Assembly (NCBI GenBank): GCA_000717735.1
Contig: JOBE01000017.1
Span: forward strand, 53,903-117,902
DNA: 64,000 nt
Origin: Streptomyces griseoluteus
GTDB taxonomy: Bacteria > Actinomycetota > Actinomycetes > Streptomycetales > Streptomycetaceae
Direction of reading: 5' to 3'
Shown: piece by piece, positions 10,081 to 12,373 of the stretch
Numbering within the stretch: the stretch's first letter is position 1
Layout of the letters: every line of letters begins with the position of its first letter
The notes under the pieces: model-generated
Database searches by the model: none
Told to the model about the DNA's origin: nothing
The model's input: only the letters and a program-made list of their open reading frames with translations
Made by a program: the position numbers and the translations under genes

Positions 10081-11682
10081 CTACTCCCACTCGATGGTGC
10101 CCGGCGGCTTGCTGGTGACGTCGAGGACGACGCGGTTGACGTCGGCGACCTCGTTGGTGATGCGGGTGGAGATCTTGGCCAGCACGTCGTACGGCAGACG
10201 CGACCAGTCGGCCGTCATGGCGTCCTCGGAGGAGACGGGACGCAGCACGATCGGGTGGCCGTAGGTGCGGCCGTCGCCCTGGACGCCCACGGAGCGGACG
10301 TCGGCGAGCAGGACGACCGGGCACTGCCAGATCTCGCGGTCGAGGCCGGCCGCGGTGAGCTCCTCGCGGGCGATGGCGTCGGCCTCGCGCAGCAGGTCCA
10401 GGCGCTCCTTGGTGACCTCGCCGACGATGCGGATGCCGAGGCCGGGGCCGGGGAACGGCTGGCGCTGGACGATCTCCTCGGGCAGGCCGAGCTCCTGGCC
10501 GACCATGCGGACCTCGTCCTTGAAGAGCTGGCGGAGCGGCTCGACGAGCTCGAACTCCAGGTCCTCGGGGAGGCCGCCCACGTTGTGGTGGGACTTGATG
10601 TTGGCGGTTCCGGTGCCGCCGCCGGACTCGACGATGTCCGGGTAGAGCGTGCCCTGGACGAGGAACGCGACGTCCTCGCCGGTGCCGGCCGACTCGGCGA
10701 CGATCTCGGCCTGCGCCTGCTCGAAGACCCGGATGAACTCGCGGCCGATGATCTTCCGCTTGGTCTCGGGGTCGGAGACGCCGGCGAGGGCGGTGAGGAA
10801 CCGCTCCTGCGCGTCGACGACCTTGAGGTTGACGCCGGTGGAGGCGACGAAGTCCTTCTCGACCTGCTCGGTCTCGCCCTTGCGCATGAGGCCGTGGTCG
10901 ACGTACACGCAGGTGAGCTGCGAGCCGATGGCCTTCTGCACGAGCGCGGCGGCCACGGCGGAGTCGACGCCGCCGGAGAGGCCGCAGACGGCGCGCTTGT
11001 TGCCGACCTGGGCGCGGATGGCCGCGACCTGCTCCTCGATCACGTTGCCCGTGGTCCAGCTGGGCTCGATGCCGGCGCCGCGGTAGAGGAAGTGCTCCAG
11101 GATCTGCTGGCCGTGCGTGGAGTGCAGCACCTCGGGGTGGTACTGGACGCCGTACAGCTTCTTCTCGTCGTTCTCGAAGGCGGCGACCGGCACGACGTCC
11201 GTGGACGCGGTGACGGAGAAGCCCTCGGGGGCGGCGGAGCAGGCGTCGCCGTGCGACATCCACACGGACTGCTCGACCGGGGTGCCCTCGAAGAGGGTGG
11301 AGCCGGCCTTGGAGACGTGCAGCGGGGTCCGGCCGTACTCGCGGGCGCCGGTGTTGTCGACGGTGCCACCGAGGGTCGTCGCCATCAGCTGGAAGCCGTA
11401 GCACATACCGAAGACGGGGATGCCCGCCTCGAAGAGGGCGCGGTCGAGACGGGGGGCGTTCTCCGCGTACACGGAGGACGGGCCGCCGGAGAGGATGATC
11501 GCCTTGGGGTTCTTGGCCAGCATCTCGGCCACCGGCATGGTGGACGGGACGATCTCGCTGTAGACCCGGGCCTCACGGACGCGGCGGGCGATGAGCTGGG
11601 CGTACTGGGCGCCGAAGTCGACAACGAGGACTACGTCCGGGTTGGAGACGTCGGGCGCGGCAGCGGGAGTCGCTGATGACAC
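10081..11682 (-). CDS. guaA: GMP synthase (glutamine-hydrolysing)
   Basis: A 533-residue two-domain enzyme converting XMP, Gln and ATP to GMP in the cytoplasm. The class I glutamine amidotransferase domain (about 15-205) carries the nucleophile Cys94 in [11 protein letters not shown] and the His/Glu pair in YHPEV. The ATP-pyrophosphatase domain (about 210-410) has the PP-loop SGGVDS. The dimerisation domain ends in [15 protein letters not shown]. The start is GTG at 11682. It lies divergent to a leader peptide/chorismate mutase unit. Together with guaB and guaB3 at 28-31 kb it supplies guanine nucleotides. Length and all motifs match the family. Confidence 0.97.
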
Positions 11683-11786: not shown

Positions 11787-11819
11787 TTGGCCCGCGCTCG
11801 TCGTCGGGGTCCATACTGT
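11787..11819 (+). promoter_or_regulatory. candidate promoter of the chorismate mutase leader
   Basis: TTGGCC at 11787-11792 and CATACT at 11812-11817 (or TACTGT at 11814-11819) form a plausible though long-spaced (19 bases) -35/-10 pair. It would place transcription start at or next to the ATG at 11824, so the leader ORF would be translated from a leaderless mRNA. Confidence 0.4.
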
Positions 11820-11823
11820 CGGC

Positions 11824-11895
11824 ATGCGCGAGTTCACGACCTTCGTCTTTACCTATGGCAACCGGCCCACCGGCTGCCATGGTCGTGCTGCTTGA
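11824..11895 (+). CDS. Phe/Tyr-rich leader peptide (attenuator)
   Basis: A 23-codon ORF starting MREFTTFVFTYG with three Phe and one Tyr among codons 4-11, followed by an intrinsic terminator and the chorismate mutase gene. The codon block reads TTC-ACG-ACC-TTC-GTC-TTT-ACC-TAT at 11833-11856. A hairpin begins directly behind it: GGCA (11857-11860) with TGCC (11875-11878), and CCGG (11862-11865) with CCGG (11870-11873), with one A/C mismatch. This is the layout of a ribosome-sensing leader: Phe or Tyr shortage would stall the ribosome on these codons. That chorismate mutase is the first step toward Phe and Tyr supports the reading. Confidence 0.7.
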   Translation: MREFTTFVFTYGNRPTGCHGRAA

Positions 11896-11919
11896 GCAAC
11901 TGACAAGCGACTTCCCAGG

Positions 11920-11956
11920 CGCCCCGGGCCGACAGGCCCGGGGCGTTCTGCGTTTT
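11920..11956 (+). terminator. attenuator terminator before chorismate mutase
   Basis: A perfect 11-bp stem (11920-11930 with 11935-11945, loop GACA) followed by TTCTGCGTTTT. It lies between the leader ORF and the chorismate mutase RBS. The 3' half of its 5' arm (GGGCC, 11926-11930) can instead pair with GGCCC at 11864-11868 inside the leader, giving a candidate antiterminator. Confidence 0.75.
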
Positions 11957-12003
11957 CCGGGCCGGGTCGCTCCAAGGCATCCGACACCACGAGGAGCCCA
12001 GCC

Positions 12004-12294
12004 ATGACCGCCCTGCCCCAGACCGAGAAGACCGGCGCCCACACCGACGAGGCGGCGATGCTGATCGGTGACGCCCGGGAGCGCATCGACGCGCTCGACG
12101 ACCGGATCATCGGTCTCATCCAGGAACGGATGGCCGTCTCGGCCGTCATCCAGGAGGCCCGGATCTCCTCGGGCGGCCGCCGGGTGAACCTGGCGCGCGA
12201 GATGGAGGTCCTCGGCCACTTCCGGGACGCGCTGGGCAAGCCGGGCACGGCGCTGGCCATGACAATGCTGGAGCTGTGCCGCGGGCGCATCTGA
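12004..12294 (+). CDS. chorismate mutase, AroQ type
   Basis: A 96-residue monofunctional chorismate mutase of the all-helical AroQ class, turning chorismate into prephenate for Phe and Tyr. It has the N-terminal helix with the substrate-binding Arg (IGDARERIDALDDRIIGLIQERM, about 21-43), the turn ARISSGGRRVNLAREMEVL and a C-terminal helix. There is no fused prephenate dehydratase or DAHP synthase domain. An RBS (GAGGAG, 11991-11996) sits 7 bases before the ATG. Expression is probably governed by the leader peptide and terminator just upstream. Confidence 0.9.
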   Translation: MTALPQTEKTGAHTDEAAMLIGDARERIDALDDRIIGLIQERMAVSAVIQEARISSGGRRVNLAREMEVLGHFRDALGKPGTALAMTMLELCRGRI

Positions 12295-12316
12295 GTGCCC
12301 CCGGGATCCCTCGCGA

Positions 12317-12373
12317 GCGCCCCGCGTCCGATCCGGCGCCCCGCGTCCGATCCGGCGCCCCGCGTCCGGCCCG
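12317..12373. repeat. three tandem 19-bp repeats
   Basis: Unit GCGCCCCGCGTCCGATCCG at 12317-12335 and 12336-12354, and a third copy with two changes at 12355-12373. Partial units flank them (12374-12382 and about 12392-12400). They lie just past the chorismate mutase stop. Confidence 0.85.

Follow-up and report, generated by a model that had tools for sequence, protein, structure and literature searches.

Streptomyces and other actinobacteria probably sense a shortage of aromatic amino acids with the ribosome. In the window, a 64,000-nucleotide stretch of Streptomyces griseoluteus DNA, a short open reading frame with Phe and Tyr codons precedes a chorismate mutase gene, and we read this leader, with a probability of about 85%, as a ribosome-mediated transcription attenuator of that gene. 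The proposed attenuator is well supported by sequence comparisons, and starvation for Phe or Tyr would open the chorismate mutase gene. Such an element would be a likely Phe/Tyr-responsive control point at the Phe/Tyr branch in Streptomyces, the main antibiotic producers. Its parts are as follows.

11812 to 11817, plus strand: -10 box (CATACT) in the promoter of the leader, with six bases between it and the ATG
11824 to 11895, plus strand: leader peptide ORF of 23 codons and a stop, probably leaderless, MREFTTFVFTYGNRPTGCHGRAA
11842 to 11856, plus strand: proposed sensing core TTC GTC TTT ACC TAT (F7 V8 F9 T10 Y11)
11855 to 11880, plus strand: hairpin 1 (pause or anti-antiterminator), AUGGCAACCGG CCCA CCGGCUGCCAU
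11863 to 11931, plus strand: alternative antiterminator, in which 15 base pairs join region 2 to region 3
11920 to 11945, plus strand: terminator hairpin, a perfect 11 bp (11920-11930/11935-11945)
11946 to 11956, plus strand: U tract, weak and interrupted, GTTCTGCGTTTT
11991 to 11996, plus strand: Shine-Dalgarno sequence GAGGAG of chorismate mutase
12004 to 12294, plus strand: chorismate mutase, the putative controlled gene (PF01817; NF005894; TIGR01808)

The leader lies between the divergent guaA (minus strand, 10081-11682), whose product has GMP synthase domains, and the chorismate mutase gene (12004-12294). Chorismate mutase scores 118.9 bits against NF005894 (cut-off 73) and 52.2 bits against TIGR01808 (cut-off 52.15), and among the matches listed the nearest named homolog, at 97% identity, is that of S. 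exfoliatus NRRL B-2924. Its C-terminal end, LELCRGRI, contains, judging by these residues, the Arg-Gly dyad of AroQ-delta; this dyad is invariant within the AroQ-delta subclass according to the accessible text of PMC4281200. Short direct repeats resembling gatccggcgccccgcgtcc, spotted by eye, lie at 12313-12370 of the window, a little past the stop codon of chorismate mutase.

Four columns of the -10 box (A 11813, A 11815, C 11816 and T 11817) are invariant in all 80 aligned sequences. For S. lividans, the accessible part of PMC8079986 gives a mean hexamer-to-TSS distance of 6.3 nt, and because the six-base gap between -10 box and ATG fits this value, the leader mRNA is probably leaderless, with its 5' end at the ATG. 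A sequence scan of the interval between terminator and gene found no TAnnnT hexamer.

A scan for chorismate mutase with one genome per species confirmed 316 relatives, the best 80 of which were used. In 79 of these best 80 of 316 loci, the 420 nt upstream of the gene contain both core and terminator; at the remaining locus, L056, the 420 nt searched reach no further than the tail of the element. The leader is near-invariant over the 79 relatives and the window, with at most one of the 80 sequences deviating at any of the 12 positions of TTTACCTATGGC. A covariance model, R1, built from 65 sequences matched 276 of 293 genomes of the order and 270 of 273 of the genus, the window's own genome included, with the downstream gene checked in only part of them. 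Two of the three genus genomes without a match lack the gene, and in the third a contig ends there. The window's own genome has a single full-scoring match, and nine of its ten weaker matches cover the terminator end only.

Searching 24 genomes with the protein sequence of chorismate mutase (a set without G023 and G027, two of the twelve non-matching genomes of the same order), we found the gene in 20, while in G041, G065, G227 and G265 gene and element are both absent. The element is upstream of the gene in 19 of the 20 gene-bearing genomes (the weakest being L151, E = 0.012), including ten that had escaped the strict order-wide scan; in the 20th, G091, the contig starts 108 bp before the gene. 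G041 and G065 are near-complete Streptomyces genomes with no detectable chorismate mutase of this family and no leader. With its own promoter-like site, ORF and terminator, the element could be taken for a free-standing gene for a small protein or small RNA, unrelated to chorismate mutase, but we consider this very unlikely: among the 24 genomes it is absent without chorismate mutase and upstream of it wherever the contig permits, other families place it before DAHP synthase, the first enzyme of the same pathway, and the coevolution of regions 2 and 3 described below would lack a reason.

The original prediction described a 23-codon ORF with three Phe and one Tyr at codons 4-11, which is present, with Phe at codons 4, 7 and 9 and Tyr at codon 11. 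It also staked itself on conservation of the Phe/Tyr block across species. The part of the block kept in the 80 aligned sequences is F7-x-F9-x-Y11, whereas the Phe at codon 4 proved variable (T at 11833 in only 5/80), and the core is conserved in Streptomyces and beyond. Among 120 aligned leaders (80 close and 40 divergent; L144, the G021 match that does not precede its chorismate mutase, was left out), 118 carry an F-x-Y-G core, FTYG in 100 and another F-x-Y-G in 18, the exceptions being one FTFG and one FGHG. In all 120, the stretch of seven codons that finishes with the Tyr-position codon contains two to five aromatic ones. Rare variants of the core in L118, L123 and L125, which amount to natural tests of its requirements, comprise Tyr to Phe (FTFG), the common codons TTC/TAC (FGYG) and Tyr to His (FGHG).

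The two codons nearest the hairpin are kept as such, TTT in 116/120 and TAT in 117/120 leaders. Both are rare in the window: 39 ORFs, chosen mechanically by a third-position G+C filter that is biased against TTT and TAT, contain 5 TTT among 353 Phe codons and 8 TAT among 318 Tyr codons, and five genes taken without the filter contain 0 among 60 and 0 among 49. Conservation of TAT can be attributed to its AU, which pairs in the stem of hairpin 1; TTT is unpaired in hairpin 1 yet conserved, and this suggests a role in decoding.

An in-frame start lies 4-9 nt past a -10-like hexamer in 110 of the 120 leaders, a lenient count in which any in-frame start was allowed. In the remaining ten, which all belong to family f3, no recognised hexamer accompanies the in-frame start. 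GTG is the start codon at two loci (L044, L066). Past the core, spacing to the terminator is unconserved modulo 3 (82, 25 and 13 of the 120 sequences), and a one-base insertion in L050, L052 and L068 puts the tail out of frame and leaves the other RNA largely unaltered. Because the frame is kept before the core and lost after it, the codons appear to matter up to the Tyr codon and the RNA beyond it, as expected of the codon-sensing attenuator first proposed.

So strongly kept an F-x-Y-G might instead be an arrest peptide, with a metabolite rather than codon starvation as the signal that makes a conserved FTYG stall the ribosome. This strikes us as improbable, since neighbouring residues and aromatic identities vary (FTFG, FGHG, WWFTYG, TYFFGY, SYFSYRH, FWRFYGYR), as codon sensing permits; pairing in the hairpin accounts for the final bases of TAT as well as for the Gly codon; and residues past the core change frame in several species. 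Two features of the codons count against an attenuator as well. Strictly kept regulatory codons are few, and E. coli pheL keeps more of them than the Streptomyces leader. Trp, which a gene of the Phe/Tyr branch does not need, stands inside the aromatic block of 15 of the 120 chorismate mutase leaders. These Trp-bearing leaders (L116, L118, L120-L126, L129, L134, L137-L140) often read FWFTYG.

The whole leader folds better than 200 of 200 shuffles (z -5.5), and the antiterminator segment alone is equalled by 8 of 200 (z -2.0). Folded as separate pieces, hairpin 1 (mean -15.3 kcal/mol), the antiterminator (14-17 pairs, mean -32.5 kcal/mol) and the terminator (mean -32.0 kcal/mol) each form in all 80 close sequences. 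The structures originally proposed are present where stated, with some corrections. A hairpin expected after the Tyr codon (11857-11878) is there, but it starts inside TAT, spans 11855-11880 and takes the last two bases of that codon into its stem (AUGGCA/UGCCAU). The terminator with a T-run (11920-11956) has the perfect 11-bp hairpin, but the run is weak and broken, which counts against the attenuator reading. The antiterminator, proposed as GGCCC (11864-11868) with GGGCC, exists and is longer: its 15 pairs comprise CGGCCC (11863-68) with GGGCCG (11926-31) together with GGC:GCC, GCC:GGC and UGG:CCA, and enclose an inner hairpin around the leader stop codon.

Hairpin 1 is the weakest part of the switch. 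RNAalifold on divergent alignments recovered the terminator, with two-sided changes at 6 of its 13 consensus pairs, and did not recover hairpin 1, which is missing from the best fold of L197, L210, L212 and L224. Within Streptomyces, column-wise covariation of hairpin 1 was equalled or exceeded in 500 of 500 shuffles by all five measures, and the antiterminator score in 290 of 500; this scoring gives neither structure support, because most columns are invariant. The GGCCC block is one base out of register in about a quarter of Streptomyces sequences.

Between species, region 2 tracks region 3: GGCCC/GGGCC is replaced by GGUCC/GGACC in L036 and by GGACCC/GGGUCC in L205, and in L224 region 2 GAGCCCGG is matched by region 3 CCGGGCUC. 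We compared the duplex energies of cognate and permuted region 2:3 pairs, a test that ignores phylogeny. A first round gave 0 of 2000 permutations for 54 pairs and 7 of 5000 for 26 region-3 types. With other families added, and again ignoring shared descent, 85 unique pairs gave -18.27 for cognate versus -16.73 for permuted pairs (0/5000), and 46 pairs, one per region-3 type, gave -17.44 versus -15.42 (0/5000). The permutation test includes L219, whose terminator was mis-picked (0 region 2:3 pairs); the other 32 of those 33 leaders have 10-15 such pairs. These comparisons indicate that the antiterminator coevolves with the terminator arm, so that the alternative stem, like the aromatic block, is conserved as the original prediction anticipated.

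Very high nucleotide conservation 3' of the core, together with equilibrium folds that always end in the terminator, would also fit an RNA controlled by a protein or a ligand-binding aptamer, with the ORF merely keeping the RNA open. We give this explanation little credence, because competing helices account for most of the conserved bases, the aromatic codons suit the pathway, and no Rfam family reaches its gathering score in the window (0 matches, a search that includes any Phe leader or T-box). A permissive Rfam search (E up to 10) returned eight matches, all far below their cut-offs, the best at 24.3 bits versus 112.

In the attenuator that we favour, plentiful charged tRNA-Phe, and perhaps tRNA-Tyr, would let the ribosome reach the stop codon at 11893, where it would disrupt region 2 and the inner hairpin so that the 3:4 terminator halts transcription. 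A ribosome stalled with TTT (11848) in the A site would mask the first arm of hairpin 1 and leave CGGCCC...GGCUGCCAUGG free; the free region 2 would then pair with nascent region 3, the terminator would come too late, and chorismate mutase would be transcribed. A stall at TAT would mask part of CGGCCC and give a weaker antiterminator, so Phe is expected to matter more than Tyr. We folded these stall states assuming that the leading edge of the ribosome lies 11-15 nt past the first A-site base. The antiterminator left by a stall at TTT amounts to -29.4 to -31.6 kcal/mol and that left by a stall at TAT (11854) to -20.4 to -21.4 kcal/mol, and none forms with the ribosome at the stop codon. The model predicts that Phe limitation would be a stronger signal than Tyr limitation.

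Stalls at codons 4 or 7 likewise leave the antiterminator available, so the selective retention of codons close to the hairpin is not accounted for by the folds alone. Once its 3' arm exists, the terminator forms at equilibrium in every stall state, and the switch would therefore have to be kinetic, decided during transcription, as in other attenuators. Before that arm exists, the antiterminator outcompetes hairpin 1 even without a masking ribosome, so hairpin 1 can act only kinetically.

Of 394 genomes in the class, each of two broader models, R2 and R3, matched 103, at different cut-offs. From a longer list we fetched 60 match stretches outside the main set, chiefly full-length matches or new families. 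We counted as an aromatic leader any ORF 10-45 codons long that, at the expected place, has three or more Phe, Tyr or Trp codons out of seven; the stretches were sorted by eye and then by this fixed criterion, with the same result. In all 46 loci with an aromatic leader, a region homologous to chorismate mutase (8 loci) or DAHP synthase (38 loci) lies downstream, 137-355 nt from the match start, and none of the 14 loci without one (13 distinct places, as L227 and L240 coincide) precedes either gene. Random offsets in the same loci gave an aromatic leader in 3 of 1054 trials. The models were extended stepwise from the Streptomyces set, which biases them toward shared features in other families.

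Chorismate mutase is the downstream gene in families f1, f2, f3, f33, f37, f39, f48 and f50, and DAHP synthase in f4, f19, f28, f30 and f40. The DAHP synthase loci are L190-L192, L194, L195, L197, L198, L200-L205, L207-L212, L214, L216, L217, L219-L223, L231-L233, L236, L239, L243 and L246-L250. In f19, which we take to be probably Pseudonocardiaceae, 56 of 61 genomes (55 of 60 genera) were matched, with the downstream gene checked in the fetched loci only. Against PRK08673 (cut-off 335), the DAHP synthase protein scores 475.7 bits at L190 and 466.5 bits at L211, and the leaders of these two loci read MQRNFWRFYGYRP... and VRNRFFSYGDAP..., respectively. Trp occurs in 32 of the 38 DAHP synthase leaders, which would fit a gene on which all three aromatic amino acids depend; it is not a clean rule for DAHP synthase only, because some chorismate mutase leaders carry Trp too. 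One tentative reading, to which we give somewhat less than even odds, is that a single ancient actinobacterial aromatic-sensing cassette, consisting of a leaderless F-x-Y leader and a multi-strand RNA switch, regulates the shikimate pathway at a different gene from family to family, either chorismate mutase or DAHP synthase, that it passed between these two genes by movement or inheritance, and that the rare TTT and TAT codons are kept to set its sensitivity.

Phe and Tyr are precursors of many Streptomyces products, and the leader would offer a simple engineering target. With so many leaders preceding chorismate mutase or DAHP synthase, one can study attenuator evolution and changes of target, and put to the test what rare codons do in attenuators.

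Leader-peptide attenuation is a textbook mechanism. E. coli pheA encodes a bifunctional chorismate mutase/prephenate dehydratase (CM-PDT), and its leader pheL has many Phe codons and is led by a Shine-Dalgarno sequence. Like the Streptomyces element, pheL-pheA combines a Phe-codon leader with a terminator/antiterminator switch on chorismate mutase activity; unlike it, the Streptomyces element precedes a monofunctional actinobacterial chorismate mutase, has a probably leaderless leader and keeps two rare codons. E. coli pheL-pheA is named as an attenuator in the accessible text of PMC11802643. Although attenuation is known, its application to Streptomyces chorismate mutase appears to be undescribed, as suggested by open-access literature (mostly listings of titles and abstract starts) in which we found no description of such an attenuator. 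The main text of two Streptomyces transcript maps (PMC4895711, PMC7738537) contains no attenuation or leader peptide terms.

Attenuators of S. lividans TK24 are given in Table 4 of PMC8079986, within its accessible part, as alaL, ilvL, thrL, trpL1, trpL2, leuL1, leuL2 and metL. They too are leader peptides before amino acid genes, several of them reportedly transcribed leaderless, but in that text none of the eight serves Phe, Tyr or chorismate mutase, and its main text leaves chorismate, phenylalanine and tyrosine unmentioned. A 2005 survey of actinobacterial attenuators (PMC1262725, accessible sections) covers Trp, Cys, Leu/Ilv and T-box cases and reports conserved structures to be absent for pathways outside those listed. 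In the same sections, the trp attenuators of Streptomyces and Corynebacterium share GGCC-type complementary triples between antiterminator and terminator, and differ from the present element in their Trp codons and trp genes. Those sections also report that mutated candidate regulatory codons of S. coelicolor ilvB proved unimportant, which counts against our reading.

The aroR-aroF element of C. glutamicum resembles the Streptomyces element in placing an aromatic leader on an aromatic pathway gene, a likeness drawn from published descriptions; aroR controls DAHP synthase, whereas the Streptomyces element would control chorismate mutase. The aroR-aroF attenuator was reportedly described by Neshat in 2014. 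Accessible passages of PMC11802643 and PMC4046766 present it as an actinobacterial attenuator with a Phe-Tyr-Phe leader. It responds to Phe and not to Tyr in the accessible text of PMC11802643, a report with which our prediction of a stronger response to Phe than to Tyr agrees.
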